Source: a virus
Strand: one strand, 5' to 3'
IMG/VR virus record: IMGVR_UViG_3300023174_000096
Location: 1-64,000 of that record
Length of the DNA stretch: 64,000 nucleotides
The notes under the pieces were generated by a model. The model had not been told where the DNA came from and ran no database searches. It saw nothing but the letters and a program-made list of their open reading frames with translations. Positions 11,549 to 27,107 of the stretch are shown here, in pieces (position 1 is the first letter of the stretch; each line of letters opens with the position of its first letter). Position numbers and translations under genes: made by a program.

Positions 11549-11821
11549 ATGGACCCCAACGTGAACGGGGCGAGGCGCGCGGTGGCGTGGGCTTTCCAAG
11601 TCCACGCCCTGCTCGACCACCTCCACCGACGTGACCCGAACAGCACCGGGTTCCACAAGCTCGCCGCTCGGGCGCTCGCCAACCGGGCGTGGGACGCCTT
11701 CGTGGAGATGGAGGCCAACCCCGAAGACCTCGCCCTCGACGATGACCTCGATGAAGCCCTCACCGGGGTCGAGAGGGTCTTCAACGCCTACGTCGGGCAG
11801 CGTGACGACCATGCTCAGTAG
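11549..11821 (+). CDS. Small helical protein directly upstream of cassette array A
   Basis: 90 aa, almost wholly helical (ARRAVAWAFQVHALLDHLH..., ALANRAWDAFVEMEANPED) and acidic at the C-terminus. The stop overlaps the start of the first lectin cassette (11811). Its size and helicity are compatible with many small adaptor proteins. I looked for resemblance to DGR accessory protein Avd and cannot claim it. Confidence 0.68.
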   Translation: MDPNVNGARRAVAWAFQVHALLDHLHRRDPNSTGFHKLAARALANRAWDAFVEMEANPEDLALDDDLDEALTGVERVFNAYVGQRDDHAQ

Positions 11822-12002
11822 CCCGGTCGCCGTCCGTGGCGGGGGCTACCAGAACGACCTCCGAACCTCCCCAAGGAGGGCACACAAGCTGGCCACCAGC
11901 GTGGTGGTGACGCTGGGGTTCCGTACCCGCCTGACGTGCAGGTGCCCCCGGTCATGCCCACCGAGAACCTTGGGCTTCGCGGCGGGGCGTGCGTCGAGGT
12001 GA
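11811..12002 (+). CDS. Degenerate lectin/FGE C-terminal cassette A1
   Basis: 63 aa, ATG overlapping the previous stop. Recognisable landmarks are RGGGYQNDL (in place of RGGSW) and VTLGFRTRLT (in place of LGFR). The segment between has lost the VRAA.R core, and the frame runs on 20 residues past the usual end, overlapping A2. Probably a decayed or highly diverged member of the cassette family. Confidence 0.5.
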   Translation: MLSSPVAVRGGGYQNDLRTSPRRAHKLATSVVVTLGFRTRLTCRCPRSCPPRTLGFAAGRASR

Positions 12003-12109
12003 AAGCCGTATGGTTGTCCACCCATAACGCCCTGTCCTCGCGGTCAGACCGATGCGCTCAAATCTACGGCTTCCGAACCCACCTGCCAGTAAGGCAACCC
12101 CGAACGTGA
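11954..12109 (+). CDS. Lectin/FGE C-terminal cassette A2
   Basis: 51 aa from ATG 11954 (a GTG at 11942 is possible). Landmarks: GLRGGACVEV ... IYGFRTHLPV, the 'GFRTHLP' ending of one of the two cassette subfamilies (also 21128 and, as FRVHLPG, 22027). Its TGA overlaps the GTG of A3. Confidence 0.6.
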   Translation: MPTENLGLRGGACVEVKAVWLSTHNALSSRSDRCAQIYGFRTHLPVRQPRT

Positions 12110-12276
12110 AGCCCACCACCAAGCCCTCCGACCTCCGCGTGTACCGCGGCGGCAGTTGGTACGGCCACGCACCGTCGTGGGTGCGCGCCGCGTCTCGCGA
12201 CACGCTCGGGCCTGCGGACCGTTACAGCAACATCGGGTTTCGGTGCGCCCTTCGGGGAAGGGAACCCCGAACGTGA
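12106..12276 (+). CDS. Lectin/FGE C-terminal cassette A3
   Basis: 56 aa from GTG 12106, overlapping the A2 stop (GTGA). Sequence landmarks: RVYRGGSWYGH, APSWVRAASR, then DTLG, P-A-D-R, YSN, IGFRCALRG. This is the terminal strand-loop segment of the FGE-sulfatase / C-type-lectin fold, with variable residues exactly where DGR target proteins vary. A 30-nt framework (12169-12198) is identical in cassettes 25340 and 26931. Its TGA overlaps the GTG of the membrane protein 12273-12536. Confidence 0.85.
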   Translation: MKPTTKPSDLRVYRGGSWYGHAPSWVRAASRDTLGPADRYSNIGFRCALRGREPRT

Positions 12277-12536
12277 ACCCCACGGACAAGGCTATGTCCT
12301 CCCCGCTAGCGGTCGCGGTCGCCCAATTCGTCTACCACCTGCTGTGGTACTTGAATGTCCGCTCCACCGCAGTAGGACACTTCCGCTTCGCGCTGATCAC
12401 GGACGTACTGAGTACGGCGCTGTACGTCTCAATCATCAAACGCCTTGTCGAAGACGGGCGGCGCTCCCAATGGATCGGGCTGATGGTGGGCGGGTCCCTA
12501 GGGTCGTGGGTAGGGCTTCACCTGCCGCTGCTATAA
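12273..12536 (+). CDS. Small membrane protein coupled to cassette array A
   Basis: 87 aa from GTG 12273, overlapping the A3 stop. Two or three hydrophobic segments: residues ~9-25, ~38-52 and ~68-87 (WIGLMVGGSLGSWVGLHL). It has the look of a small phage membrane protein (DUF5698-like or holin-like topology cannot be separated by eye). Translational coupling to a lectin cassette suggests co-production. Confidence 0.65.
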   Translation: MNPTDKAMSSPLAVAVAQFVYHLLWYLNVRSTAVGHFRFALITDVLSTALYVSIIKRLVEDGRRSQWIGLMVGGSLGSWVGLHLPLL

Positions 12537-12541
12537 ACCCC

Positions 12542-12559
12542 GCATCCTAGGTAGGATGC
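12542..12559. promoter_or_regulatory. Palindromic operator-like site
   Basis: GCATCCTA-GG-TAGGATGC, perfect 8-bp arms, 4 nt before ATG 12564. Confidence 0.5.
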
Positions 12560-12563
12560 CCCG

Positions 12564-12878
12564 ATGACCAGCAGCCGCATCGCGCGAGTTCTTACCGTAG
12601 GGGCCACCCTCGGTGCCGCCTACCGACTGCACGAAGAACCCCACAGCCCCGGAAAATTCTGGCACCTCGTCACCTGTGCCCTCGCCGCCATCTCCACCCA
12701 CCACCGGGGCGAACCCCCCCGGCTCAATCCCCACGAAACCGCCGCCTCCTACCTCGCCGTCCCAACGGCACTCCTCGCCTACCGCTACGAAACCACCGCC
12801 ACCAACGCAATCTGGATCGCCGCCGTACTCGCGTGGGCCGTCTGCGCTTACGTCAGCAACCGAAACGAAGATTCGTAG
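12564..12878 (+). CDS. Membrane protein, 104 aa
   Basis: 104 aa with an N-terminal hydrophobic stretch (VLTVGATLGAAYRL), a middle one (FWHLVTCALAAI) and a strong C-terminal one (AIWIAAVLAWAVCAYV). Not recognised; possibly part of the lysis or envelope set together with the preceding membrane gene. The 18-bp palindrome abuts its start. Confidence 0.65.
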   Translation: MTSSRIARVLTVGATLGAAYRLHEEPHSPGKFWHLVTCALAAISTHHRGEPPRLNPHETAASYLAVPTALLAYRYETTATNAIWIAAVLAWAVCAYVSNRNEDS

Positions 12879-12912
12879 CGCCGGGGGAACCCCCGCCCCC
12901 CCACGGGTGAGG

Positions 12913-12936
12913 TTTTGCCCCTAGCGGGATACCGCC
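12913..12936 (-). repeat. Shared 3'-flank element, copy B
   Basis: Nearly identical to 7339-7363; 28 nt past the stop of the sigma-like gene. Confidence 0.5.
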
Positions 12937-12963
12937 TCCGACGACCCCGCCCCCCTCCCGACG

Positions 12964-13641
12964 CTACGTTCCTTCGATCAGCGCCCCGCGCACCTCGGCC
13001 AGCACCCGCTGACCCCACTCTTCCCGTGCCCCCACCGCCAGCAGGGCCTCCTTCCGGCTCTGCCCAGCGTACAGGCCCGACAGGAACGCCTCCACACGGT
13101 CCCGCTCCTCCCCCTCCCCGTACAGACCCACCAACAGGTCGCGGAGCTCCGTGTACCCCTCCCCCGTAGAGCTCAGTCCCACGGGGAGCTCGCCGTCGTC
13201 CGTCACCCCCTCGCGACTGTCCCTCAACCGTTCGCGACGGAGGTAGTTGGCCAGCACGCACCGGATCACGATGTGGACGTAGTGCCCGAAGGAGGATTTC
13301 TTGTGGTCCCAAGGGCACGAGCCACGGTTGCGAGCGAGAAGCCCACGGTAGATCTCTTGGAGGAACTCCTCGGGGTCGATGCCCTCCCGCACCAGCACCC
13401 CCGTGAAACCTCCCGCGTAGAACAACTTCCTCACCTCGTGGCCCCGCACCCCAAGGTCGATCCCCAGTGCCGTGCCCCCCACCCCACCGTTCATCCGCCG
13501 GGAGAGAGACCCCAGCAACACCCGCAGCGGGAGAGACGGGTTCCCCGGGAGAACCTTGGGAGCAGGTGCCCGACGAGAAAAAGTCCTCCGTCGCGGGGTA
13601 GTGTCAACCGACCAGTGGTCCCAAACAAACGCCAGCGTCAT
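12964..13641 (-). CDS. Sigma-factor-like protein (ECF region-2-like)
   Basis: 225 aa. Residues ~88-140 read DPEEFLQEIYRGLLARNRG, SSFGHYVHIVIRC and LANYLRRERLRDSRE, which match the helical pattern of sigma-70 region 2 (D..EDL.QE...R....F....W......R...D..RR). The C-terminal ~80 residues are helical and could hold a diverged region 4 ('LSGLYAGQSRKEALLAVG', HTH-like). ATG 13641 has GGAGG 5 nt upstream and is preferred to GTG 13644. Phage-encoded ECF-like factors redirect host RNA polymerase. Either recurrent promoter type in this window could be its target; that is inference. Confidence 0.65.
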   Translation of the reverse strand: MTLAFVWDHWSVDTTPRRRTFSRRAPAPKVLPGNPSLPLRVLLGSLSRRMNGGVGGTALGIDLGVRGHEVRKLFYAGGFTGVLVREGIDPEEFLQEIYRGLLARNRGSCPWDHKKSSFGHYVHIVIRCVLANYLRRERLRDSREGVTDDGELPVGLSSTGEGYTELRDLLVGLYGEGEERDRVEAFLSGLYAGQSRKEALLAVGAREEWGQRVLAEVRGALIEGT

Positions 13642-14078
13642 CACAGCCTCCGATTTTGGTTGCGTCCCAAACTTCCAACTTCGACACGGGTTCAGTCCCT
13701 TGGGGCATCAGGTCACCGCCAGACCCGTCCCCATCTCGCCCTTCGGGCGCTGGGAGGGGTGGGGCAACGACGAGATAGAGATGACGGTGATGGTCACGGT
13801 GCTCACCGACACACCCGGTGTCGGACACTCACCCGTGCGCCTCTCCCTCCCTGTGTCCCCTTCTAACAACCCCCTGTTTTCTCGGGATAACCCATTTACC
13901 GGGGTTTTGTTAGCCGTAATGGGGGGTGTCTGTCAACTTCCAAGGGCGTGTAACGGGGGTGGCGGGTGGTCCCAAGGTGAGGGCGGGGCAGGCCCAAGTT
14001 TCCCAAGCTCACGCCTCGGACCGTCCCCAAGTGACTGAGACGGCACCCCATGACACTATGGGTAGTGTAGTAAACGGT
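13642..14078. other. Gene-poor regulatory region
   Basis: About 430 nt between the divergent sigma-like and FmdB-like genes. It contains the AT-richest stretch of the area (13860-13915), an imperfect inverted repeat, a CCGTAAT string at 13914 related to the GCGTAA motif, and CACTA-TGGG-TAGTG at 14054-14067. No gene seen. Confidence 0.45.
13863..13913. repeat. Imperfect inverted repeat CTAACAACCCC / GGGGTTTTGTTAG
   Basis: Arms separated by ~27 nt in unusually AT-rich DNA. Could be an operator or terminator; undecided. Confidence 0.45.
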
Positions 14079-14294
14079 ATGCCGACCTACACCTACCAAT
14101 GTTCCAAGTGTTCCTCCCAGTACGAGCGGGTGCAGCGGATCAGTGACCCACCCGACGTGGTGTGTCCTGTCCCTGTGGGCGATCCGGGAGGTAGTGGAGA
14201 CGATCAGTGTGGCGGGGCGGTACGGAGGGTGATCGCGCCCGGTGGGGGAGGTTTCATCCTCAAGGGCGGGGGCTGGTACCGGGACGGGTACTGA
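14079..14294 (+). CDS. FmdB-family zinc-ribbon protein
   Basis: 71 aa. MPTYTYQCSKCSSQYERVQRI is the FmdB/CxxC-CxxC-SSSS signature (first Cys-x2-Cys), the second Cys pair is VVCPVP...DQCGG, and the tail GGGGFILKGGGWYRDGY is the classic FmdB ending. These small zinc ribbons are called putative regulators; the biochemical role is not settled. The longer upstream frame is rejected because the family begins at this Met. Confidence 0.85.
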   Translation: MPTYTYQCSKCSSQYERVQRISDPPDVVCPVPVGDPGGSGDDQCGGAVRRVIAPGGGGFILKGGGWYRDGY

Positions 14295-14306
14295 GGCGGG
14301 GTGGTG

Positions 14307-14498
14307 TCACTTCTTGGCGGGCGGGACGGTGGTGAAGTCACTGGCCGTGAAGTGTGACAGAGGTGACGGTGGCGGTGGTTCTTTCTTGTTGATGAAGCAC
14401 ACGGAGCACATGGTGGCTCGGGAGTGCAGGGCGAGTCGTCCGCACCGTTCGCACCGGGGATATTCCTCGGGTTCGTAGGCTGGGGGTCGTGTTGTCAT
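14307..14498 (-). CDS. Small zinc-ribbon protein
   Basis: 63 aa with CERCGRLALHSRATMCSVC (two Cys-x2-Cys knuckles) and a Pro-rich tail. ATG overlaps the TGA of the ATP-grasp gene (ATGA), so the two are translationally coupled. Confidence 0.7.
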   Translation of the reverse strand: MTTRPPAYEPEEYPRCERCGRLALHSRATMCSVCFINKKEPPPPSPLSHFTASDFTTVPPAKK

Positions 14499-15235
14499 CG
14501 GAAGGTCTTGTGTTCTGCGTAGTGGGCGTAGCTCTTCCACGCTGCGATAAGTAGCGCACCGGGGTTGGTGACCATGTCGAAGCGTCCTGCGGTGAGCACG
14601 CTGTTGACTTCGACGACGGCGGGGTGCCCTTTGTGGCACCATCCCACGTCGAGGACGTAGGCTCCGGGGGCTTCGGCCTTCCACGCCCGGTACGCTTTCT
14701 CGGCGTAGGCACGGAGTTCTGGGTTGTGGTCGGGGTCTTTACGGACGCCCCGGGGTCCGATGAAGAACCGTTCCTCGCGGCTGAAGTGCAGGTACTCTTG
14801 GGCGAGGACCGGGTAGTCGTCTGGGAACAGGCAGACGCTAGTGGCGGCGTACAGGAAACTCCTCGCGTGGAACGCCTTGGCTTCGTTGAGGGGCTTCACG
14901 AAGATTTTCTGTGTGCTACGGGGGTGTGAGCGTTCCCGTACCCGCAGTACGCCCAGCGTGGTTTTCCACACCCTTCGGTGGGCGAGGGGTTTGAGGGCCG
15001 TGGGGATGTCCACGTTGGGGTAGGGGGTCTTGAAGGTCCATTCGTAGATGGCCTTCACGGCTCCCGCGTCTCCTTTCACGGGGGTGTCGGGGGTGACGGT
15101 GCGGGGGAGTTTGTTACGGGCGAAGGGGATCACCCGGTAGCCTCGGCGGGTGAGGTCTGCTGCTACGAGGGCGCACGAGTTTGAGAGGTAGCCTTTCGTC
15201 GCGGTGCCCGCTTGTATGTACGCGGTGGGTGTCAT
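14495..15235 (-). CDS. ATP-grasp fold protein (DUF4343-like)
   Basis: 246 aa. Features of ATP-grasp enzymes: KIFVKPLNEAKAF (nucleotide-binding Lys on a beta strand), 'PVLAQEYLHFSREERFFIG' (hinge Glu plus catalytic region) and 'YVLDVGWCHKGHPAVVEVNSVLTAG' (metal-binding E-x-N at the end). Free-standing ATP-grasp proteins occur in phages as putative peptide- or amino-acid-ligases. The substrate is unknown. A GCGTAA motif lies 9 nt upstream of the start, making it the first gene of the unit with the zinc ribbon. Confidence 0.7.
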   Translation of the reverse strand: MTPTAYIQAGTATKGYLSNSCALVAADLTRRGYRVIPFARNKLPRTVTPDTPVKGDAGAVKAIYEWTFKTPYPNVDIPTALKPLAHRRVWKTTLGVLRVRERSHPRSTQKIFVKPLNEAKAFHARSFLYAATSVCLFPDDYPVLAQEYLHFSREERFFIGPRGVRKDPDHNPELRAYAEKAYRAWKAEAPGAYVLDVGWCHKGHPAVVEVNSVLTAGRFDMVTNPGALLIAAWKSYAHYAEHKTFR

Positions 15236-15243
15236 GGCGGGGT

Positions 15244-15252
15244 GTTACGCCC
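15244..15252 (-). promoter_or_regulatory. GCGTAA motif (GGGCGTAAC)
   Basis: Minus strand, 8 nt before the start of 14495-15235. Confidence 0.5.
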
Positions 15253-15787: not shown

Positions 15788-16711
15788 TCAGAAACCGAAC
15801 AGGTCGTCGAGGGAGGTGACGGTGTTGGGTTGGACGCAGTGGGGTGACAACCACAGACGCTCGCGGGATTTGTTCTCGTTGTCCCCGCGTCGGTTGTGCC
15901 CGCCGTGCCCTTCCCATGACACTTCCCGCCAGCCTTCGGGCATTGGGCGGTCGTCGTACCCGGCCAGCACGATGCGGACGGTGGGTGTGGCGTTGGCGAC
16001 GGCCCACTCGACCACCTTGTCGAACACGTCGGGGTCGTCGTCCTCCCCGTAGCACTTGCCGTCTCTCCCTTCGTGCGTGTAGGGGGGGTCGAGGAAGATG
16101 CCCGTGGGCAGTTTCCCGTGGAAGTTGTTGACGACGGAGTGTGATAGCGCCCGTGTGTAGTCCCCGCAGAGCACCCGCACCCGTCGCAGTCGGGCTTGGA
16201 GGTCTCGCATGTGTTGGTGGACATCCCGCGTCATCGCGTGGACGCCCTTGCCGTGTAGCCCTCCCGCACACATGGGCTTGCATCGTCGGGGAATGTCCAC
16301 GCACCACGCGCCCGTGAAGAAAGAGCTCATGCCCCACACCCACCACCCGGCGATCTTGGGGTCGCACCAATCGGGGTCTGCTTCCAGTTGGGCTCGGAGT
16401 TGGTCCCGGCGTTCCCACAGCCATCGGTGTCGGGCGTGGAGGTCGTTTTCCAGCACCGGGTGGTCCGCGTGGCGTGCGACGGCGTCCGGGTCTTGGGACA
16501 CGGCCCGCCAGAAGTTCGCGACGTACCCGTTGGCGTCGTTGATCGTCTCGGTCCCCTTGAACGGTGCGGGGCGAGCCAGCAGCACGGCGGCGCTGCCCGC
16601 GAACGGCTCGACGTAGTTGGTGACGTTGCCGAGGGCTTCCCACACGGTGTCGGCCACCATTGACTTGCCTCCCATGTAGGGGAACGGGGCTTTGAGGTCG
16701 GAGGTGCTCAT
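15788..16711 (-). CDS. D12-class DNA adenine N6-methyltransferase, paralog 1
   Basis: 307 aa. PYMGGK at the N-terminus, motif I FAGS at 37-40 and motif IV DPPY at 208-211, in the order of Dam/D12-class enzymes. It transfers a methyl group from SAM to adenine N6 in a specific DNA site, probably protecting phage DNA from restriction or marking it. Paralogous to the next gene upstream (16724-17797), 12 nt away; both end in a conserved SLDDLFGF-like tail. The recognition site cannot be read from sequence. Confidence 0.9.
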   Translation of the reverse strand: MSTSDLKAPFPYMGGKSMVADTVWEALGNVTNYVEPFAGSAAVLLARPAPFKGTETINDANGYVANFWRAVSQDPDAVARHADHPVLENDLHARHRWLWERRDQLRAQLEADPDWCDPKIAGWWVWGMSSFFTGAWCVDIPRRCKPMCAGGLHGKGVHAMTRDVHQHMRDLQARLRRVRVLCGDYTRALSHSVVNNFHGKLPTGIFLDPPYTHEGRDGKCYGEDDDPDVFDKVVEWAVANATPTVRIVLAGYDDRPMPEGWREVSWEGHGGHNRRGDNENKSRERLWLSPHCVQPNTVTSLDDLFGF

Positions 16712-16723: not shown

Positions 16724-17797
16724 TCAGAAGCCGAACAGGTCGTCGATGGACGTTGGTGCGGTGGTGTGTCGGAGGCAGTGGGGTGAGAGCCACAGACGTT
16801 CCCGGTGCTGTTGGCTCCCCTTGTGGGATTGATTTGCCATGCCGCCCTTGAGGAATCCCTCTCGGTACCACTCGACGGCGGTCCAGCCTTGGGTTTCGAG
16901 TTCTTGGTGCTCCGTGTCGTAGCCCGCCAAGACGATTCGGTACTTGGGGTTGTCCCCGTTGACCTTGCACCACCGCCTCACGTCGCTGGCGATGGTGCCG
17001 CTGTCCGAAGCATAAAGATCTCCCGTGCGCACATCATCCGCATACGGGGGATCGAGGAAAACGCCCGCGTGTCCGCCTTGTCGCACCGGCAGGGTCTGCA
17101 ACGCGCCGCTGGTACACGCGCGCGTCCAGTCCCCATTGAGCACGCGGACGTGCCGCAGCCTCGCGGACAGGAACCGCAGCCAACGGGTGAGCTCTGGCAT
17201 CGTCATCGGGTGGTACTCGGGCTCCGCTCCCACACCCTCCTCGCGCAGTTGCGGGCGGTTCATCCCTTGTCCGTTGCCGACAAGGTGCGGGATTTGACGT
17301 GCCACACCACCGTTCTTCGACCGCTTCGTGATGCGCCCATCGTCACCGACGACCCACGGCCCATCGCCGCTGCACCACCCGCTTCCGATCCAGCAGGACT
17401 GCCCCCACGCCCACCAGCCCGCCATCTTGGCGTCGTAGAAGTCGGGGTCGCCCATGAGGTGTTCGAGTTGTCGCTCGCTGCGCCACTTCACGAGGGCGAG
17501 GTGACGGGCGTGCATATCGGCCTCGCACACGGGCCACGAGGCAGCTTCGGCCACCGCATCGGGGTCGCGGATGATGGCCCTCCATGCGTTGCAGAGCAGC
17601 CCGTCCATGTCGTTGACGGTCTCGCTGTGGTAGGGACGGTTCGCGGTGTGCGGGCGACGTAGCAACACGGCGAGGGAGCCCGCGAAGGGTTCGACGTAGT
17701 GCTCAACGTCACCCAGCGCGGTCCAGACGTGTTCCGCCGCGTCGGCTTTGCCGCCGAACCACGGCCACGGGGTCTTGTAGAGGTTGGTGAGTGTCAC
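16724..17797 (-). CDS. D12-class DNA adenine N6-methyltransferase, paralog 2
   Basis: 357 aa from GTG 17797. PWFGGK, motif I FAGS at 38-41, motif IV DPPY at 249-252, C-terminus SIDDLFGF. Compared with paralog 1 it carries a ~50-residue insertion between motifs I and IV (around 'RSKNGGVARQIPHLVGNGQG'), likely in the target-recognition region, suggesting a different DNA site. First gene of a two-gene unit preceded by GGGCGTAAG. Confidence 0.9.
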   Translation of the reverse strand: MTLTNLYKTPWPWFGGKADAAEHVWTALGDVEHYVEPFAGSLAVLLRRPHTANRPYHSETVNDMDGLLCNAWRAIIRDPDAVAEAASWPVCEADMHARHLALVKWRSERQLEHLMGDPDFYDAKMAGWWAWGQSCWIGSGWCSGDGPWVVGDDGRITKRSKNGGVARQIPHLVGNGQGMNRPQLREEGVGAEPEYHPMTMPELTRWLRFLSARLRHVRVLNGDWTRACTSGALQTLPVRQGGHAGVFLDPPYADDVRTGDLYASDSGTIASDVRRWCKVNGDNPKYRIVLAGYDTEHQELETQGWTAVEWYREGFLKGGMANQSHKGSQQHRERLWLSPHCLRHTTAPTSIDDLFGF

Positions 17798-17924: not shown

Positions 17925-19478
17925 ATGAAGCTCATTCACCGTGCCCGATGGAGCGATGCCGAGAAGCTCGCCGTGATGGCGGCGTACAACGCCACTGACA
18001 CTGCCGAGGAGTTCTTCCGGCACTTCCGGGCGTCCGTCCCCACCGCGCCTGTCCGCACCACCAAGGCGTACATCACCTACCTCTGCGAGACGATCCGCGA
18101 GGACCGCCGCCCCGTGTACGAGGACTTGAGTCGGATGCTCCAGCAGGAGCTCCGCAAGGAGAAAGAGAGGCTCGCGGCGCTCAAGGAGGCGCAGGCTCCC
18201 AAGGTCGAACCGCCCAAGGTCGAGGCTCCCAAGGTCGAGGCTCCCAAGGCTTCCATCCCCGACTACCTCGACGAGATCAAGGACGGGCCGATGGATGTCC
18301 CCGTCAAGACGCCCTCGCCCAACTTCGTGGGGGATGCCCGACCGAAGCCGACGCCTCACGCTGCCGTCCCTCGCCACTACCGGGTGCCCGTGTACACGCA
18401 GATGGACTTCTCCTATGCGGACATCGTGGCGTTCTTCGCCGTGCCCGAGGTGATGGTGAAGGCGGCTCTCGACGGCGGGGTGATCCCGTCGCACGAGGGG
18501 TCCGTGCGTCGCGAGGTGTTCATGGCCCTGCACGAGTCGATGTCCGATGGCTTGGACTTCGACGCGGCGTGCGACGTGATCCGTGAGAAGTTTCGTGAGA
18601 AGCCCATCGTGCCCGCCGAGAAGCTGTACGCTCCCACCGTCGAGAAGTCTCCCATCGAGCCCGACCCCTACTTGAAGGGACCCTTCCCCATCGAAAAGAA
18701 GCAAGAAGCCCCGACGCTGGACGACCCGAACTCCGACGCGATGGACGCCTTCACCGTCGAGGAAGCTGCCGCTGCGCTGGGCTTGACGGACACGGGCATC
18801 CTGCTCACGGCCATCAACCGCGATGGGTTCCCCGCCGTGAAGATCGACGGCAAGTGGTGCATCACCCGCGCCGACCTCAAGCGCGTGCGCGCCCTGCGGG
18901 AGTCGGGCTTCACCGTCGAGGAAGCCCTCAAGCGTGCGGGCGCACCTGTGCCCCCGACCTCCGTGCCCAGCGAGACTTCGTGGACCGACCACATCGCCCC
19001 GCTGACCCCGGAGGAAGCGGGTGAGACGGACGCGAGGCCCGACGTGGTGGACCGTGACCCGGTGTGGGAGATGGTCTCGCTGGAAGATCTGGCCAGCGAG
19101 CTCCACATTCACGTCGCCAGCGTGTACCAAGGGGTGTCCGACCACCCGCTGGTGCGGAAGCACGGCGACGATCTTGGCGTCCCCCGCCAAGCCTTCGACC
19201 TCATCGAAGAGAAGTGGCGGAAGTGCCGCAATCTCTCGGCGGCGTTCGACTTCGCCGCCGAGAAGCTCGGTGTCCTCCCCCCGCCCCCTGCGGAGATCTA
19301 CGTCGCAGAGATGGACGAGCGTCAGTGGGCTCTGGAGGCTCTCGGTGAGGGTGTCTTCACCGTCGAGCAAGCCCTCAAGATCGCGGGGGTGACGGACACC
19401 CCTCGCAACCGCTGGCCGCTGGGGCTTCTCGGGCGGGGCGAGATCACCCTCGCCCAAGCCGCGAAGCTGCTCCGTTAG
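17925..19478 (+). CDS. Multi-helix-turn-helix protein with charged linker
   Basis: 517 aa. Residues 1-70 look like a SANT/Myb-type helix bundle (RWSDAEKLAVMAAYNATDTAEEFFRHF). A charged helix and Lys-Val-Glu-Ala/Pro-Pro repeats (KVEPPKVEAPKVEAPK) follow. From ~150 on come several similar segments of the form 'FSYADIVAFFAVPEVMVKAALDGG', 'FTVEEAAAALGLTDTGILLTAINRDG' and 'VSLEDLASELHIHVASVYQGV', each like an excisionase/MerR-type winged HTH. Multiple DNA-contact modules on a long chain suggest a transcriptional regulator or nucleoid-type protein. The start at 17925 has AAGGAG 8 nt upstream. Confidence 0.75.
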   Translation: MKLIHRARWSDAEKLAVMAAYNATDTAEEFFRHFRASVPTAPVRTTKAYITYLCETIREDRRPVYEDLSRMLQQELRKEKERLAALKEAQAPKVEPPKVEAPKVEAPKASIPDYLDEIKDGPMDVPVKTPSPNFVGDARPKPTPHAAVPRHYRVPVYTQMDFSYADIVAFFAVPEVMVKAALDGGVIPSHEGSVRREVFMALHESMSDGLDFDAACDVIREKFREKPIVPAEKLYAPTVEKSPIEPDPYLKGPFPIEKKQEAPTLDDPNSDAMDAFTVEEAAAALGLTDTGILLTAINRDGFPAVKIDGKWCITRADLKRVRALRESGFTVEEALKRAGAPVPPTSVPSETSWTDHIAPLTPEEAGETDARPDVVDRDPVWEMVSLEDLASELHIHVASVYQGVSDHPLVRKHGDDLGVPRQAFDLIEEKWRKCRNLSAAFDFAAEKLGVLPPPPAEIYVAEMDERQWALEALGEGVFTVEQALKIAGVTDTPRNRWPLGLLGRGEITLAQAAKLLR

Positions 19479-20044
19479 CGGGTGAGCAGCGGCAGCAGGT
19501 GCGGGCGAAGGGACGGATTCTGGTAGGCCAGCCGGATGACCCGCGACCGTAGGCTCGCCGTCTTCGCGAGCTCTTCTTCCGACAGCACCCGGTTCTTGGG
19601 CACGCCGTGAACATCACCGTCGTCACCGAAGCCCACGGTGATGTGGAAGTCCTGACCCTCTGGGCTCAACCCCAGTGACGCCCGGAAGTCTCTCCCTCCC
19701 GGCCAATCGACCACCACGAAGTAGGCCACCTTGGTTCCCGACGCGGCGCTGCCTACGCCCTTGGGTCTCCATCCCCCGTCGAGGGGGAGCATCGCGATGA
19801 TCTTCTGGGCGTCGCTCTTGGACACGCCACGGGTGCTGGCGACGTAGTCCACGGCTTTCTTGCCGTCCTGCGGTCCCGCCAAAGTGACGTGGGCTTTGTC
19901 CCCGTCCCGCCTCACGCGGTTGGCGATGAGCTTCTGTGCTCGCTCCTCGCCCAACGCCGTAACGAGTACCCTCTCGGCTTTCTCTTGCTCGGCTTTGACG
20001 CGAGCGTCCGTGGCCATGATCGCGCCCTTGACCTCGATGTGCAT
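19475..20044 (-). CDS. 2H-phosphoesterase-like protein with LRPHLLPLL C-terminal segment
   Basis: 189 aa. Two H-x-T-x motifs, HVTLAG (residues ~52-57) and HITVGF (~134-139), fit the 2H phosphoesterase superfamily, which includes LigT, cyclic phosphodiesterases and the phage anti-CBASS protein Acb1. Which of these it resembles cannot be judged by eye. The last 26 residues (RSRVIRLAYQNPSLRPHLLP...) are a segment that forms the N-terminus of three unrelated proteins in this window (49793-50512, 52549-53205, 63256-63561). The 3' end overlaps the convergent gene 17925-19478 by 4 nt. Confidence 0.6.
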   Translation of the reverse strand: MHIEVKGAIMATDARVKAEQEKAERVLVTALGEERAQKLIANRVRRDGDKAHVTLAGPQDGKKAVDYVASTRGVSKSDAQKIIAMLPLDGGWRPKGVGSAASGTKVAYFVVVDWPGGRDFRASLGLSPEGQDFHITVGFGDDGDVHGVPKNRVLSEEELAKTASLRSRVIRLAYQNPSLRPHLLPLLTR

Positions 20045-20079: not shown

Positions 20080-20247
20080 ATGAAGACCCAACCTCACCCG
20101 TCTCCTGCTTGTGGCGGGGGCTGGAACCTCCAGTACAACGCCTACTACCGTGCGTGGGCGCGTGGGCGGGGACTCACTCGGAGCGAGACACCCGTGACCG
20201 TGGGTTTCCGGGTCGCCCTGTCTTGGCGACGGCCACTGGGGGGCTGA
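20080..20247 (+). CDS. Lectin/FGE C-terminal cassette B
   Basis: 55 aa. Landmarks: CGGGWNLQYNAYYRAWAR ... VTVGFRVALSW. This is the shortest and most isolated cassette, with the GGxW and GFR anchors retained, the VRAA.R core altered, and no long N-terminal leader. It is preceded by its own GCGTAA motif, so it starts a transcription unit. Confidence 0.65.
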   Translation: MKTQPHPSPACGGGWNLQYNAYYRAWARGRGLTRSETPVTVGFRVALSWRRPLGG

Positions 20248-20624: not shown

Positions 20625-21131
20625 ATGGACCCCCGTATCGCCCTCGCCCAAGAGTACGACGCCCTCGCGGAGATCACCGACCAGTATTACCGCGAACACG
20701 CCACCCGCCAAGAGCTCTGGCAGCAGGAAGCTCGCGTCAACCGTGCCCTCGCCGCCGTGTACCGGCACGAAGCCGAGAGTGACCTTCTCCTCCGCGCCGT
20801 CCGCGCCCTCGCGGGGCTCGACCCGGACGCCCTCAAGTCCATCACGCCCGAAGCGATGCACCGGGTGCTGGGTAGGCGGGGATGGACGAAGACCGGGGAG
20901 ATTCCGTGGGCTGGCGATCCGTCTCGCGTCGGGTTCCACACTTACGATCACCCCACGGCCCTCGGCTGCGGCGGCGACCCGATGGGGGTGATCCCGGCGG
21001 TGCTGGTGCCCGAAGGCCCGGATGCCCATGATTACCCGCGTCGGGTGATGGAGTGGGCCACGGACGTAGCGGCCCGACACGGTGACGTGGCCCCTGCGGA
21101 GGTGCTCGCGGAGGCGTGGGCGAAGCCGTGA
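20625..21131 (+). CDS. Unknown 168 aa protein heading cassette array C
   Basis: 168 aa: a helical N-terminal half (EYDALAEITDQYYREHATRQE) with coiled-coil character, then a mixed region. Not recognised. Its stop overlaps the GTG of cassette C1, so all five array C members may be translated from its message. Confidence 0.7.
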   Translation: MDPRIALAQEYDALAEITDQYYREHATRQELWQQEARVNRALAAVYRHEAESDLLLRAVRALAGLDPDALKSITPEAMHRVLGRRGWTKTGEIPWAGDPSRVGFHTYDHPTALGCGGDPMGVIPAVLVPEGPDAHDYPRRVMEWATDVAARHGDVAPAEVLAEAWAKP

Positions 21132-21289
21132 AGTCGTCGGTCAAAGCCTTTCGCGTCCGCCGCAGTAGCCCTTGGCTCTACGACGATCCGTCGTGGGTGC
21201 TCGCGTCTGCTCGCCATTCGCGCGTGCCCTCGGGATGTAACAGTGCGCTGGGTTTTCGCACGCACCTACCGGGAAAGATGCCGCGATGA
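21128..21289 (+). CDS. Lectin/FGE C-terminal cassette C1
   Basis: 53 aa from GTG 21128 (GTGA overlap). Landmarks: RRSSPWLYDDPSWVLASAR ... ALGFRTHLPG. RGGSW has become RSSPW, but DPSWVLASAR and GFRTHLPG keep the fold pattern. Belongs to the GFRTHLP subfamily with A2. Confidence 0.7.
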   Translation: MKSSVKAFRVRRSSPWLYDDPSWVLASARHSRVPSGCNSALGFRTHLPGKMPR

Positions 21290-21465
21290 ACCCCACCCCC
21301 AAGCAACCCAAGCCTGACTACCTCTACCGAGGGTTTCGCGGCGGGGCGTGGGACTACTCGACCGCCGCCAACGTGCGCGCGGCCTATCTCTTCGGCAGCA
21401 CGCCGACGCTCCGTGACTACCTCATCGGGTTTCGCTGCGCGCTGCGGGTAAGGGAACCCCGGTGA
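21286..21465 (+). CDS. Lectin/FGE C-terminal cassette C2
   Basis: 59 aa from ATG 21286 (ATGA overlap). Landmarks: YRGFRGGAWDYS, AANVRAAYLFGS, PTLRDYLIGFRCALRV. Variable positions after GGAW, after VRAAY and before GFR. The framework is very close to C4 at both protein and DNA level. Confidence 0.8.
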   Translation: MNPTPKQPKPDYLYRGFRGGAWDYSTAANVRAAYLFGSTPTLRDYLIGFRCALRVREPR

Positions 21466-21845
21466 GGCCCAGCAAGAAGCTCCTCGCGGAGAAAATTCGT
21501 GAAGCCTTGTCGGGCTACCTCGGCACGGTGAAAGACTCGACGACCATTCAGTCTGTCCGAGACCAAGTGCTATCGGCGTTGCCGACGAACTTCTCGGGGT
21601 CATTGGACGTGTCGCAGGACCCACTCGACCCCACCAAGATCAACGTGGTGGCGCACGTCCCGTTGACCTACGTCCAAGTGACATACATCGCAGAGCCTTC
21701 CGGGGACCACCACTACGTCGGCGGGTGTTGGCTCTCTGACGACCCCAGCAGGGTTCGCCCCTGCGCCGGGAGCAGGGTGGGTCCGACGAATCACACGGTC
21801 TCGGTGGGCTTCCGAGTGTGCCTACGGGGGAGGATGTTGCGATGA
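21462..21845 (+). CDS. Cassette C3 fused to an N-terminal phage-type domain
   Basis: 127 aa from GTG 21462. Residues 1-~80 form a separate domain (helical start RPSKKLLAEKIREALSG, then 'TKINVVAHVPLTYVQVTYI', typical of short phage proteins with paired beta strands). Residues ~82-127 are a cassette: VGGCWLSDDPSRVRPCAG ... SVGFRVCLRG. It is the only cassette carried at the C-terminus of an intact fused protein, the arrangement expected for a DGR target. Confidence 0.75.
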   Translation: MRPSKKLLAEKIREALSGYLGTVKDSTTIQSVRDQVLSALPTNFSGSLDVSQDPLDPTKINVVAHVPLTYVQVTYIAEPSGDHHYVGGCWLSDDPSRVRPCAGSRVGPTNHTVSVGFRVCLRGRMLR

Positions 21846-22030
21846 ACCCCACCTCCAAGCCCACCGCCGACAACCTTCCCCGCGTGTTTCGCGGCGGGTC
21901 GTGGAACATCACGTCCGCCACCTTCGTGCGCGCGGCGTTTCGCGACGACTGCACGCCGACGATCCGTGTCATCAACCTCGGGTTTCGCTGCGTCCTTCGG
22001 GGAAGGGAACCCTTGAAGGTGACCCCGTGA
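21842..22030 (+). CDS. Lectin/FGE C-terminal cassette C4
   Basis: 62 aa from ATG 21842 (ATGA overlap). Landmarks: RVFRGGSWNIT, SATFVRAAFRDDC, PTIRVINLGFRCVLRG. Leader MNPTSKPTADNL parallels C2. Variable codons are AAC ATC, GAC GAC TGC, ATC and GTC ATC AAC, all of NNC form. Confidence 0.82.
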   Translation: MNPTSKPTADNLPRVFRGGSWNITSATFVRAAFRDDCTPTIRVINLGFRCVLRGREPLKVTP

Positions 22031-22257
22031 GCTTCGGCACCGGGAAGACAAGTTCTCGGCTGACCGAGATCGTCCTGCACACAACGGCGGATGCCCGCGC
22101 GAGGGCGGGGACCCTTCAGTACAAGGGTGGAAGCTGGTCGAACCGGGAACAAAGCTGGATGCAGATCACCCAGCGCCACGGCAACCCCGCGTACTACAGC
22201 AGCGTGGGACTGAGCTTCCGGGTTCACCTACCGGGACGGGCACCCCGTGGCGATTGA
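22027..22257 (+). CDS. Lectin/FGE C-terminal cassette C5, extended N-terminus
   Basis: 76 aa from GTG 22027 (GTGA overlap). A ~32-residue N-terminal piece unlike the other leaders precedes YKGGSWSNREQSWMQITQR ... SVGLSFRVHLPG. Diverged but with both anchors intact; GFRTHLP-like subfamily ending. Confidence 0.72.
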   Translation: MSFGTGKTSSRLTEIVLHTTADARARAGTLQYKGGSWSNREQSWMQITQRHGNPAYYSSVGLSFRVHLPGRAPRGD

Positions 22258-22982: not shown

Positions 22983-22986
22983 CGCC

Positions 22987-23597: not shown

Positions 23598-23599
23598 TC

Positions 23600-23608
23600 G
23601 GGCGTAAC
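23600..23608 (+). promoter_or_regulatory. GCGTAA motif (GGGCGTAAC)
   Basis: 34 nt before ATG 23643, further than usual, with AAGGAG in between. Confidence 0.45.
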
Positions 23609-23642
23609 AGAGGGGCCACCCAAGGCAAGGAGACCCCCCCCA

Positions 23643-23951
23643 ATGTCCAAGGCAAGCCTCAGCACCCCCGACACCTACGGTCTCGTCATGATCACCTCCG
23701 GTCCTTTCAAGGGCTGGGTGGGTGAGTACGACGACAATGACGAGGAGACGGGGTGCTACATCGTCTATCCCCTGTACCCCGTGGACTGCTGCCCGTACAA
23801 GCTGTACCGCTCCACGAGCATCCGCACACTCACCGAGGATGAGTTGGAGAATGCGGAAAAGCGCAAACGTGCCCTTCACGCTCTCGGTGGGGAGATTCCT
23901 GCACCGACGCATGAAAGTCAGTTACACCCGGACGCCACGCTCCGTGTGTAG
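23643..23951 (+). CDS. KOW-like small protein, 102 aa
   Basis: 102 aa. 'LVMITSGPFKGWVGEYDDNDEETGCYIVYPLYP' has the KOW/Tudor-like beta pattern (hydrophobic, GPFKGxxG), followed by a helical tail. KOW motifs bind nucleic acid or RNA polymerase partners. Good SD (AAGGAG) upstream. Moderate confidence in the motif. Confidence 0.7.
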   Translation: MSKASLSTPDTYGLVMITSGPFKGWVGEYDDNDEETGCYIVYPLYPVDCCPYKLYRSTSIRTLTEDELENAEKRKRALHALGGEIPAPTHESQLHPDATLRV

Positions 23952-23954
23952 GGC

Positions 23955-24497
23955 ATGAACCCGTATCAGCATCTCGCCCAGCAAGCCCGGTACGTCTGGA
24001 CCGCCCGTGATGGTCTCGTCCACGAGTACGCATGGGCGATCCCGTGCGACGCGGCCATCGCGGCCATAGTTGGGCTCGGCAAGCCCGTCGTCGAGCTCGG
24101 GGCCGGGAACGGGTACTGGGCCAGCCTCATCGCGGAGGCTGGCGGCACCGTCGAGTGCTACGACCGCGAACCCGGAAGGCACATTCGCGGCGAAAAGAGC
24201 AAGCTCTGGCACCCCGTGTCGGAGGGGACGTGCGACGTGATCACCCGCGCGCACAAGGACCACGCGCTCCTGCTGGTGTGGCCCCCCTACGACAAGCCGA
24301 TGGGCACGGAGTGCCTCCTTCGCTTCATGGAGGCGGGCGGGAGCACCCTCGTGTACGTCGGTGAGGGCTCCGGGGGATGCACCGCCGACGACGAGTTCCA
24401 TCGCATCCTCGACGAGCACTGGAGCGAGGAGCAGTGCGTCTGCCTTCCTCAGTGGTCGGGGATTCACGACGGGCTCTCTGTGTATCGTGCGAAGTGA
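23955..24497 (+). CDS. Class I SAM-dependent methyltransferase
   Basis: 180 aa. Motif I 'VVELGAGNGYWASLIA' and a catalytic-type 'LLLVWPPYDKP' at the position of the N-MTase (D/N)PPY motif, here WPPY. The fold is clear; whether it methylates nucleic acid or another substrate is not. A short protein for the family (no separate recognition domain). Its stop overlaps the next start (TGATG). Confidence 0.8.
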   Translation: MNPYQHLAQQARYVWTARDGLVHEYAWAIPCDAAIAAIVGLGKPVVELGAGNGYWASLIAEAGGTVECYDREPGRHIRGEKSKLWHPVSEGTCDVITRAHKDHALLLVWPPYDKPMGTECLLRFMEAGGSTLVYVGEGSGGCTADDEFHRILDEHWSEEQCVCLPQWSGIHDGLSVYRAK

Positions 24498-24850
24498 TGG
24501 GCACGAGCAAGTTTGAGGGCCACGCCCTGTGCGTGGCCGACTACGAGGAGAACTACATCTACGGGCTCGGGACCGACGAGACCGTGATGAAGGGCATCAG
24601 CGCCTTCGTCCTCGACGCAGGGGGTTCAACCGTCCGTGCGTCGGCCCCTATGGCGTTTGAGGACGAGGTGGACGAGGACGGCTACTTCAAGGACGTGAGG
24701 GACGAGTACCGCGAACTCACCGCCCGCAAGGCCCTCCCGGTGATGCGGGTGAAGGTGACCGTGGAAGTAGAGCCCCTGTCAGACGAAGAGTCCGCGAGGG
24801 TGTGGGAAGATCACTGCGCCAAGCTGCGGGCCAAGCGGGGTGAACCGTGA
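24497..24850 (+). CDS. Unknown acidic 117 aa protein
   Basis: 117 aa, acidic, alpha/beta ('FEGHALCVADYEENYIYGLGT'). Not recognised. Coupled on both sides: ATG overlaps the methyltransferase stop, and its TGA overlaps the next GTG. Confidence 0.7.
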   Translation: MGTSKFEGHALCVADYEENYIYGLGTDETVMKGISAFVLDAGGSTVRASAPMAFEDEVDEDGYFKDVRDEYRELTARKALPVMRVKVTVEVEPLSDEESARVWEDHCAKLRAKRGEP

Positions 24851-25290
24851 CCCTGCGACGGATTCACTCCCCCCAAGAAGAACTGCTGGAACAAGCCCTG
24901 CGGGACGACGCCCGTCACTTGGACGAGATCATCGCCATCAGTGAAGCCCTCGGAGCGCCCGTGGACTCCTCGGGACCGGAGATCTTGGAGATCGCACGGG
25001 AGTTGGTACGCCGTGTCGAGGCGATGGATTCCTTGCTGCGCCAGCACCTCCCCAAGTGCGGCGAGTGCGGCGCTATCGCCACCCGGACGTACATCCACAC
25101 GGTGGGACAGCGGTGTTATGCGTGCGACGACGAGGGGTGCATCACGGAGCACTTCTGCGCGCAGTGTCACCAAGTCGCCCATGACACGGGCGAGCCCTGC
25201 CCCTTCTGCGGTTCCACCGAGTACACTCCCCGCGTAGAGGCCGACCTCACGAATCTACCCTTCGCCAACGTGCGACGTGCGACGTTCTGA
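24847..25290 (+). CDS. Zinc-ribbon protein, 147 aa
   Basis: 147 aa from GTG 24847. A helical N-terminal half, then a Cys-rich C-terminal half: KCGECG, RCYACDDEGC, FCAQCHQ, PCPFCG. Eight or more Cys plus His suggest two zinc sites. Likely nucleic-acid or protein binding. Last gene before cassette array D. Confidence 0.75.
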   Translation: MTLRRIHSPQEELLEQALRDDARHLDEIIAISEALGAPVDSSGPEILEIARELVRRVEAMDSLLRQHLPKCGECGAIATRTYIHTVGQRCYACDDEGCITEHFCAQCHQVAHDTGEPCPFCGSTEYTPRVEADLTNLPFANVRRATF

Positions 25291-25324
25291 CGGGGGCGAT
25301 GTTGGAAGACCCCGAAGACCTGTA

Positions 25325-25333
25325 GGGCGTAAC
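25325..25333 (+). promoter_or_regulatory. GCGTAA motif (GGGCGTAAC)
   Basis: 6 nt before ATG 25340 of cassette D1. Confidence 0.5.
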
Positions 25334-25339
25334 GGGGGT

Positions 25340-25546
25340 ATGGCAAGATCACGAAAGACCCCCGCTCCCTACGAAACAAACCCGACCGACACCCTCTACC
25401 GCGTCTACCGCGGCGGCTGTTGGTACGACAACGCACCGTCGTGGGTGCGCGCCGCGTCTCGCGGCGCGAACGTGCCTGCGTACCGTGACAACAACTTGGG
25501 GTTTCGGTGCGCGCGCGGGGGTTCCGAAAGGAAGGTGAAACCGTGA
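25340..25546 (+). CDS. Lectin/FGE C-terminal cassette D1
   Basis: 68 aa from ATG 25340. Landmarks: YRVYRGGCWYDN, APSWVRAASR, then GANV, P-A-Y-R, DNN, LGFRCARGG and a basic SERKVKP tail. Compared with A3 and D5, the framework from GCACCG to TCTCGC is identical over 30 nt, while flanking variable codons differ only where an adenine would stand in an AAC/ACG/GAG template. First gene of array D with its own GCGTAA motif. Confidence 0.88.
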   Translation: MARSRKTPAPYETNPTDTLYRVYRGGCWYDNAPSWVRAASRGANVPAYRDNNLGFRCARGGSERKVKP

Positions 25547-26577
25547 GCAACCCCAAGACCGACATCCTCTACCGCGTCCTCCGCGGCGGCGGTTGGTACA
25601 TCCGCGAACCGTCGTGGGTGCGCGCGGCCATTCGCAGCACGAACGAGCCTGCGAACCGTGGCCTCAACTTGGGGTTTCGGTGCGCGCGCGGGGGTTCCGA
25701 AAAGAGGTCGGGGCGTAATACGGGCATGAAGATCGAACTGGCTTTGTACTCAACCCAAGAGCAACCGAAGTCCACCGCCCAGTGGGCGTGCGCCCGGTCC
25801 CCCCACTACCACTGGGAATCTGCCTCGCTGATTACCTCCCCCGACACGATCTGGGGATTCATGGACGAGGTGATGTCCGTGGACGCGGACGCGCGGGGGG
25901 ACACCGTAGCCGTTCGTTCTAGGTGGGAAGACCGCGAGTGGACCCAATACGTCCACCCGACCTACGGGGTCGTCCCCAAGCTCTTCGTGGACGAGGACGG
26001 CAAAGTGATCGAGGAATGGCCGACTCTTGAGGAGATCGGAGGCCCGTGGGTAGCGACGCACGTCCTGCCCGATGGGCACGGGATGCCCCTCTGCTACGTC
26101 CCCCCCACGGAGGGTTTCCAGATGGGAGACGCGATCTCTTCGACCAAAGATCGACGGGTCGTAGACGTTCTGGGCGGGTTCGTGGCCCTCACCCCCACCA
26201 CCATCGAGCAGTGGGCTTGGTATTGCGCGGCCACCGGGAAGCCGGTCCCCGAAGTCAACACCGAGAATCGCCACCACCCGGTGGTCGAGGTGGACTTTTG
26301 GCAGTCCCGCGACTTCGCAGAGTGGGCGGGTCTGGAGCTTCCCACGGAGGAACAGTGGGAGCACGCCGCGCGTGGGCGGGATGGGCGCAAGTTCCCGTGG
26401 GGCAACGAAGAACCGGGAGCCTACCCGGACCCGAAGTGTCACTGGTCTGGTGGCGACAGCGAGGGTGCCGATGGAGTCGCGCCCGTTTTTGAGCGTCCCG
26501 ATGGTGCCTCCCCCTACGGGTGCCTCGACATGAGCGGGAACGTCTGGGAGTGGTGCGACTCCCTGTACTACAGGTGA
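25543..26577 (+). CDS. Cassette D2 read in frame into an FGE-sulfatase-like body that lacks its own C-terminus
   Basis: 344 aa from GTG 25543 (GTGA overlap with D1). Residues 1-~60 are a complete cassette (RVLRGGGWYIREPSWVRAAIR ... NLGFRCARGG) whose usual stop is missing. The body may instead start at ATG 25726 (283 aa), 6 nt after a GCGTAA motif. The body has the formylglycine-generating-enzyme/SUMF1 pattern: 'YVPPTEGFQMGD', 'HPVVEVDFWQSRDFAEWAGLELPTEEQWEHAARG', 'FPWGNE', 'YGCLDMSGNVWEWCDSLYYR', then stop. The family normally continues with R-V-x-RGGSW...GFR, which here is the next cistron in the +1 frame. Known catalytic Cys residues lie in the missing part, so sulfatase activation is unlikely; a ligand-binding lectin-fold role is more plausible. 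Confidence 0.85.
   Translation: MSNPKTDILYRVLRGGGWYIREPSWVRAAIRSTNEPANRGLNLGFRCARGGSEKRSGRNTGMKIELALYSTQEQPKSTAQWACARSPHYHWESASLITSPDTIWGFMDEVMSVDADARGDTVAVRSRWEDREWTQYVHPTYGVVPKLFVDEDGKVIEEWPTLEEIGGPWVATHVLPDGHGMPLCYVPPTEGFQMGDAISSTKDRRVVDVLGGFVALTPTTIEQWAWYCAATGKPVPEVNTENRHHPVVEVDFWQSRDFAEWAGLELPTEEQWEHAARGRDGRKFPWGNEEPGAYPDPKCHWSGGDSEGADGVAPVFERPDGASPYGCLDMSGNVWEWCDSLYYR
25711..25719 (+). promoter_or_regulatory. GCGTAA motif (GGGCGTAAT)
   Basis: 6 nt before ATG 25726, the alternative start of the FGE-like body. Confidence 0.5.
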
Positions 26578-26581
26578 AACC

Positions 26582-26761
26582 GTGAGTGATCCCAAGACCG
26601 CCGACACCCGTCTCCGCGTGTATCGCGGCGGGTCGTGGTGGAACAAGACCACCACCTATGTGCGTTTGGGGGTGAGCAGCGTTGACACGCCCACGAACCG
26701 TCTCTTCGACTTGGGGTTTCGTTGCGCGCTGCGGGGATGTGAGAGGAAGGTGAAACCGTGA
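26582..26761 (+). CDS. Lectin/FGE C-terminal cassette D3 (missing C-terminus of the FGE body)
   Basis: 59 aa from GTG 26582, 4 nt after the body's TGA and in the +1 frame. Landmarks: RVYRGGSWWNK, TTTYVRLGVSSVD, PTNRLFDLGFRCALRG. Read continuously after the body it would complete an FGE domain. A +1 slip at AGG-TGA would join the two in one chain. Confidence 0.82.
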   Translation: MSDPKTADTRLRVYRGGSWWNKTTTYVRLGVSSVDTPTNRLFDLGFRCALRGCERKVKP

Positions 26762-26934
26762 GCAACCCCAAGACCGACACCCTCCTCCGCGTCTACCGCG
26801 GCGGTAGCTGGGACAACTTCGATCCGTCGTGGGTGCGCGTCGCGCTCCTTAGCTGGAGCGGGCCGACGTACCGGGACATCGACCTCGGTTTTCGGTGCGC
26901 GCGTGTGGGTTCCGAAAGGAAGGTGAAGCCGTGA
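26758..26934 (+). CDS. Lectin/FGE C-terminal cassette D4
   Basis: 58 aa from GTG 26758 (GTGA overlap). Landmarks: LLRVYRGGSWDNF, DPSWVRVALLSWSG, PTYRDIDLGFRCARVG. Leader VSNPKTDT and tail SERKVKP are shared with D1/D2/D5. Confidence 0.85.
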   Translation: MSNPKTDTLLRVYRGGSWDNFDPSWVRVALLSWSGPTYRDIDLGFRCARVGSERKVKP

Positions 26935-27107
26935 GCAACCCCAAGACCGACACCCGTCTCCGCGTCTTCCGCGGCGGTAGCTGGGGCTACCACGCACCGT
27001 CGTGGGTGCGCGCCGCGTCTCGCTACTCGCTCGTGCCTGCGAACCGTGACAACCTCTTGGGGTTTCGGTGCGCACGCGGGGGTTCCGAAAGGAAGGTGAA
27101 GCCGTGA
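26931..27107 (+). CDS. Lectin/FGE C-terminal cassette D5
   Basis: 58 aa from GTG 26931 (GTGA overlap). Landmarks: RVFRGGSWGYH, APSWVRAASRYSLV, PANRDNLLGFRCARGG. One of the three near-identical cassettes (with A3 and D1). Its stop overlaps the start of a zinc-ribbon gene whose first codons (GTGAGTGAT) repeat the D3 start. Confidence 0.88.
   Translation: MSNPKTDTRLRVFRGGSWGYHAPSWVRAASRYSLVPANRDNLLGFRCARGGSERKVKP

Follow-up and report, generated by a model that had tools for sequence, protein, structure and literature searches.

The window analyzed here, the first 64 kb (positions 1 to 64,000) of the 105,516-base virus record IMGVR_UViG_3300023174_000096 (phage G000), carries a series of short open reading frames (ORFs), here called cassettes, that resemble the C-terminal segment of the FGE-sulfatase/C-type lectin fold. 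The first-pass annotation had described 14 such ORFs or fused segments in four clusters, and we found all 14 in that arrangement, every one on the + strand (Table 1). Cassettes share a constant core that reads CCGTCG-NGG-GTGCGCGC. We searched 1,117 stop-to-stop ORFs of at least 30 amino acids in the window with cassette profiles, using reversed and shuffled controls, among which the best E value was 0.036. Eleven of the 14 cassettes matched the segment profile well above chance: eight (12106, 21286, 21842, 25340, 25543, 26582, 26758, and 26931) had E values of ≤5e-25 with the main profile, which includes these eight best-scoring window cassettes as rows of its own, and three scored lower yet significantly (21128, the C terminus of 21462, and 22027). 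A profile built only from L010, an unrelated cassette-bearing record, recovered all eight of the best cassettes (E values of 5.6e-15 to 2.2e-5) as well as 21128 (7.6e-5), 22027 (0.0045), and 21462 (0.049). Eight of the 14 had matches to the Pfam FGE-sulfatase family (PF03781) with E ≤0.02, all of them in the region of positions ~204 to 255 of 255, and the profile-matched cassettes span solely the last ~50 residues of the fold.

The proposal that all 14 represent the FGE C-terminal segment therefore holds by profile for 11 of them, while 11811 (not listed among the matches), 11954, and 20080 fell below significance and are linked to the segment by motif and context. Of these three, 11811 and 11954 look like divergent members of the GFRT class of cassettes found at the syntenic site of a relative, and the status of 20080 as a cassette is doubtful. 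The two ORFs described as fusions do carry cassettes, with an amended architecture: 25543 runs in frame into an FGE body, and 21462 consists mostly of an unrelated N-terminal stretch with no other copy in G000 or its relative G001.

Table 1. Cassettes and FGE body in the window (coordinates are window positions)
Feature	Coordinates	Strand	Evidence and remarks
Cassette 1, divergent GFRT class, weak	11811..12002	+	ATG ORF, RGGGY...TLGFRT; no profile or Pfam match
Cassette 2, divergent GFRT class, weak	11954..12109	+	RGGAC...YGFRT; profile E 0.28; stop overlaps next start (GTGA)
Cassette 3, hypervariable GFRC class	12106..12276	+	Pfam FGE 2.1e-6
Doubtful cassette, GFRV	20080..20247	+	Motif alone; profile E 1.0
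Cassette, GFRT class	21128..21289	+	Profile 4e-8; start in GTGA overlap with preceding stop
Cassette, GFRC class	21286..21465	+	Profile 4.6e-25; ATGA overlap at start, GTGA at end
Unrelated N-terminal stretch (~84 amino acids) plus C-terminal cassette	21462..21845	+	Profile 1.6e-7 on 21714-21833
Cassette, GFRC class	21842..22030	+	Pfam FGE 1.5e-6; ATGA/GTGA overlaps
Cassette with longer leader, SFRV	22027..22257	+	Profile 7e-5
Cassette, GFRC; counterpart by position of G001 252388	25340..25546	+	Pfam FGE 1.3e-7
Cassette, GFRC, in frame into FGE body	25543..25725	+	Pfam FGE 2.7e-6; GTGA overlap
FGE/C-type lectin body without C-terminal segment	25726..26577	+	Ends ...GNVWEWCDSLYYR-stop; Pfam FGE 1.1e-25
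Cassette, GFRC, directly 3' of body, other frame	26582..26761	+	Pfam FGE 3.4e-4; profile 4e-26
Cassette, GFRC	26758..26934	+	Pfam FGE 4.6e-5; GTGA overlaps
Cassette, GFRC	26931..27107	+	Pfam FGE 1.3e-6; stop overlaps GTG of next gene

The last array also contains the sole FGE body in the window, and this body lacks the part of the fold that the cassettes encode. Its protein ends ...DMSGNVWEWCDSLYYR and stops immediately before the position of the RGGSW segment, it matches PF03781 only at positions 66 to 194 of 255, and its alignment to solved FGEs stops at WEW. The cassettes align solely to the final ~45 residues in solved FGE structures and to residues 254 to 290 of TvpA (2y3c), a variable protein of a diversity-generating retroelement (DGR), and they thus correspond to the C-terminal variable repeat (VR) segment of FGE/C-type lectin-type DGR variable proteins. 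Between them, the body and the cassettes cover the C-terminal part of the FGE fold (in 1y4j, body at 112 to 216 and cassette at 219 to 265). We found no full-length target with a covalently attached VR, body and cassette being separate ORFs or placed in inverse order; in the window, cassette 25543 lies in frame upstream of the body and cassette 26582 lies downstream in another frame. The active-site cysteines of FGE are absent from the cassettes, which read PS-W/R-VRAASR where FGE 6muj has YLCHDSYC, and we therefore infer that they would serve in ligand binding and not in catalysis.

The first-pass annotation had also proposed that related phages be searched for the same arrays, and arrays were present both in relatives, found by one viral scan for tandem cassettes and another for the constant core, and in unrelated phages. 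Phage G001 (IMGVR_UViG_3300032243_000867; 265,895 bp) shows synteny with the window phage, with matches to 78 of 100 predicted genes, and is probably nearly complete because its gene order wraps over its two ends. Its cassettes number at least 24, spread over about eight sites, and two further relatives carry 16 (G014; 167 kb) and 6 (G016; 56 kb). The body ends shortly after GNVWEW in all four related phages and in the unrelated lineages L010 and L024/L043; the C terminus reads GNVWEWTSTVH(K)-stop in G001, G014, and G016 and GNVWEWCDE-stop in L010, in which the cassettes are again separate ORFs. In L024/L043, cassettes are fused head to tail ahead of a body without a C terminus of its own. Further arrays are present in the unrelated contigs L035, L041, L070, L075, L311, L320, and L322. 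The 485-kb uncultured phage LR745208.1, nearest in the phage collection by PhoH (68% identity) and DNA polymerase (64% identity), is a distant relative in which neither cassette arrays nor a reverse transcriptase (RT) was found. A different arrangement occurs in the 121-kb viral contig L012 (IMGVR_UViG_3300040801_004793), in which about nine consecutive genes (4.7 to 12.3 kb) encode full-length FGE-type paralogues that all differ in their variable segments; that record yielded no RT.

Sequence differences between close relatives are concentrated in the cassettes. This hypervariability, its template-like pattern, and the lack of an RT, both described below, go beyond the first-pass annotation. 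Between window positions 24400 and 25390 and the G001 counterpart, 6 of 991 bases differ (0.6%), compared to 24 of 120 (20%) in cassette 25340, and 49 intergenic and 51 leader bases at this site are identical. Cassette 12106 differs from its G001 counterpart at ~40 bases, and the next ~700 bp carry one substitution and a short insertion. In the L024/L043 pair, 6 differences fall in the 571 bp of the body and none in cassette 1, compared to 20 in cassette 3 and 22 in cassette 4, most of these in the first two codon positions. Variation is not general: G001 and G014 have almost identical GFRT-class cassettes, including the one immediately 3' of the body.

The arrays themselves also differ between phages. 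A single G001 cassette occupies the 25340 site, at which the window carries two cassettes, the body, and three more cassettes, and the G001 body lies at a different place in the syntenic map; moreover, the cassettes g252388 and g41883 have two of three variable blocks in common and not the third. These shared blocks and array differences, together with exchange of leaders, indicate that recombination between cassettes contributes to the differences, and this contribution is not to be counted as retrohoming. Shufflon-type inversion was considered and ruled out, as the single inverted repeat in the 9- to 30-kb region lies away from the uniformly oriented cassettes.

The variation follows an adenine-limited, template-like pattern. 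In an alignment of 21 GFRC cassettes from four phages, adenine occurs in at least two sequences in 25 of 27 high-entropy columns and in none of 60 low-entropy columns. Over 15 variable sites, the third base is the majority base in 293 of 315 cases, compared to a codon-usage expectation of 223 ± 7; this constancy was never attained in 20,000 simulations and is kept even in codons with up to nine different residues. Codons 4, 9, 12, 20, and 22 vary chiefly at one base (NGT, GNA, NGG, NCG, and GNG, respectively). Two Myxococcota genomes, L244 (a DGR with RT, FGE target, and template) and L242 (a DGR with RT, bAvd-like protein, and template), contain template repeats that align gaplessly with the cassettes, and the adenines of these templates predict the variable cassette columns (P = 1.5e-11 for L244 and 5e-12 for L242); the template of L014 is shorter by one codon and, when not realigned, gives a weak fit (P = 0.01). 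Variable sites therefore coincide with the adenines of genuine FGE-type template repeats, in agreement with the earlier statement that this is the segment that DGRs mutagenize, and a DGR-type adenine-limited process very probably made the cassette variation. A target hairpin 3' of the VR is known for BPP-1 and is not universal; a DGR-type hairpin after each cassette was ruled out here, the sequences 3' of 47 cassettes folding no more strongly than shuffled versions (mean z of 0.01). The Myxococcota genome G061 has five RVT_1 matches and G085, of the same phylum, has eight, FGE-type DGRs among them, and such bacteria may be rich in DGRs.

A PF00078 search, which does detect the RT of L014, found no RT in G000, G001, G014, G016, or any other array-bearing record that it covered. 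A hidden RT was also rejected, as Pfam gave none and tblastn with the L014 RT gave only short, insignificant matches. Nor was a template recovered: the 105-kb contig has no noncassette copy, a constant-core scan of viral contigs returned nothing beyond phages with cassettes and two cassette-free contigs, a scan of genome contigs gave, among the matches listed, chance matches lacking cassette context, 379 Myxococcota and 369 Thiomonas-class genomes gave no direct match, and plasmid and phage collections gave none. There were three ~72% template matches, all in Myxococcota, and two of these are genuine DGR templates. No host was found in the genome scan, as judged among the matches listed, or in later searches, which covered fewer than 800 genomes. 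Given that RT and template are missing from the phage, the enzyme would act from elsewhere, most simply from the host, or would have acted earlier; the chances that it acts in trans now, and not merely in the past, appear evenly balanced.

One alternative dispenses with a retroelement altogether and attributes the variation to ordinary mutation, strong diversifying selection, and recombination among cassettes in the phage population. It is consistent with the failure to find an RT or a template, with the block sharing and leader exchange that mark recombination, and with the chance use of A-free codons for the conserved residues. We nevertheless regard it as unlikely: the NGT, GNA, NGG, NCG, and GNG sites vary chiefly at one base despite the unrelated residues that result, the third-base constancy far exceeds that expected from codon usage, the variable columns are in register with the adenines of real DGR templates, and a 20% change in the cassette next to 0.6% in the flank is too fast for point mutation.

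The cassettes also carry translation signals. Stop/start overlaps are a usual sign of translational coupling. In 36 of 45 cassettes of the window clade, the stop codon lies in an exact 4-base NTGA overlap with the start of a following ORF of 40 codons or more, in many cases the next cassette; the same holds for 32 of 100 predicted genes of the contig. These signals suggest, with high confidence, that the cassettes are translated genes, and together with the open frames they favor individual expression, one of two uses that the first-pass annotation had envisaged for what is indeed a repertoire of cassettes. The other use, swapping onto acceptor proteins, is not supported: the bodies end before the segment in the four related phages and the two unrelated lineages, and none of them showed an acceptor carrying a C-terminal cassette covalently. 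A programmed frameshift joining body to cassette was rejected because the frame relation differs between the window (+1) and G001 (a 4-nt stop/start overlap), with no conserved signal.

A version of the swapping idea in which the cassettes are silent donors, recombining onto the covalent C terminus of an acceptor in a shufflon- or gene conversion-like manner and not serving as active products, would explain the same-orientation arrays with conserved linkers, the copy numbers and locations that vary among close relatives, and the blocks common to different cassettes. The cassette-body fusions in L024 and 25543 could be taken as its products, although there the cassette is N terminal. This version is slightly less probable again than an origin without a retroelement, given that the window clade lacks the required acceptor, that cassettes are not flanked by inverted repeats, and that a silent donor would have no need of the start codon present in every cassette, usually within a stop/start overlap.

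The reading that we favor, judged somewhat better than even, is a split lectin in which the body is separate and the variable subunits are interchangeable, the subunits being diversified DGR style, in trans (perhaps by the host) or formerly, and shuffled by recombination. Each cassette would be a small expressed gene for one variable segment (~55 amino acids) of the FGE-type C-type lectin fold, with the rest of the fold made once by a body gene that stops where the segment should start. As the body lacks a core part of the fold, it probably needs a cassette for completion, and as the cassettes are separate coupled genes, a two-part lectin of one body and many subunits is the simplest model; that cassettes do pair with the body is, we infer, modestly probable. 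The body would be completed noncovalently by any one of the many subunits, and the phage would thereby possess a panel of binding specificities. GFRC cassettes would be diversified by mutations confined to the adenine positions of a template repeat, with RT and template acting in trans, for which a host DGR would be the simplest source, or in the past, while recombination would copy, lose, move, and exchange cassettes between arrays.

Several observations weigh against this split-lectin model. AlphaFold models of two natural cassette-body ORFs are poor, with pLDDT (predicted local distance difference test) scores of 49 and 42, and are uninformative about pairing. The constancy tests treat the sequences as independent even though the cassettes are related. 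Since no search recovered a template repeat or RT, ongoing action in trans is unproven. The 25340 pair also differs in the leader and at the 3' end, and part of the difference at that site is whole-cassette replacement and not retrohoming. Finally, A-to-C changes are rare in the cassettes, whereas the RT of BPP-1 often misincorporates G in the NAC context (PMC12875486), and the enzyme would thus need a different bias.

Two other interpretations concern what the cassettes do. Cassettes or cassette-body pairs might be decoys or inhibitors that act inside the host cell, for example against putative STAND sensors diversified by FGE-type DGRs. The flanking genes tested match no tail or virion family, which makes an intracellular role possible, and host DGRs of the same target family have been linked to putative antiviral sensors (PMC10907252). 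This role is compatible with the split-lectin model and differs from it in the target alone; with a virion role also possible for the proteins, we consider it improbable as a separate explanation, at about the level of silent donors or marginally below. That the cassettes are functionless relics, duplicated and decaying fragments of a former FGE protein, is very improbable, since three badly diverged cassettes (20080 barely fits) and class II conserved pairs without clear purifying selection (2 synonymous and 3 nonsynonymous changes in one comparison and 2 and 6 in another, all small numbers) are outweighed by the coupled starts, the lack of any internal stop in the 46 significant cassettes of G001, G014, and G016, and the same split organization in unrelated phages.

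The split-lectin arrays have partial counterparts among known systems. FGE/C-type lectin DGR variable proteins such as TvpA of Thermus aquaticus are alike in fold segment, variable sites, and adenine-limited C-terminal variation; here, in contrast, the variable segment is a separate multicopy gene, and there is no RT, template repeat, or adjacent full-length target. In the trans-acting DGRs of Thiohalocapsa PB-PSB1, some targets are likewise apparently diversified by an RT and template located elsewhere, yet RT, template, and full-length targets share one bacterial genome, whereas here the targets are in phages and consist of the variable segment only (PMC10907252). Multi-VR DGRs also have many VR copies per genome, with up to 21 in one ORF and several target genes, although these are complete DGRs whose VRs form part of larger target ORFs (PMC6642488). 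Mtd of BPP-1 and the tentaclins are phage ligand-binding proteins hypermutated in a C-type lectin-like or similar domain, but they are full-length tail proteins with a linked DGR (PMC10743442). The PilV shufflon offers a similar array of alternative C-terminal ends, while the arrays described here have no invertible repeats, a start for each cassette, and a single orientation per array. Published work thus covers phage DGRs whose one or two targets are full length (PMC10743442, PMC8144416) and, within single bacterial genomes, DGR action in trans, remote targets, and multiple VRs (PMC6642488, PMC10907252). What is new here is the parting of DGR-type variable segments from both body and enzyme; we found no description of arrays of stand-alone VR genes without an RT in the literature searched, most subscription papers lying outside its coverage.

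Other features of the phage were observed in passing. A motif of ~23 residues lies at or near the N terminus of several otherwise different proteins and at the C terminus of one (window 49793-50512, 52549-53205, 63256-63561, and 19475-20044 and G000 76540-76914, all on the - strand, with four more in G001) and looks like a shared targeting tag. An SNF2-type helicase (L008:16442-19468, equal to G000 100,442-103,468) contains a probable intein, on the basis of a LAGLIDADG_3 match and weak intein-splicing matches. Two tandem methyltransferase-like genes on the - strand (window 15788-16711 and 16724-17797) have the C-terminal sequence DDLFGF in common, their shared ends being marked by repeat family D5. 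A 3,538-residue ORF (window 29781-40397, + strand) has no PHROG match and is 65% conserved in G001.

If the split-lectin model is correct, DGR diversification can be separated both from its enzyme and from the body of its target, and one phage would hold dozens of interchangeable hypervariable subunits for a single scaffold. The role of DGRs would then widen from altering one protein over time to many variants expressed simultaneously, and it would become testable whether a virus uses a host mutator in trans. The cassettes would also supply small variable domains of natural origin for work on a two-part binding scaffold, and surveys of DGRs that begin from the RT would overlook such loci. A more tentative possibility, less likely than not, is that phages maintain many split-lectin subunits in the form of RT-less DGR targets and let the DGR of the infected bacterium diversify this large repertoire; a parasite would thus build a combinatorial, antibody-like form of recognition by means of the mutator of its host.

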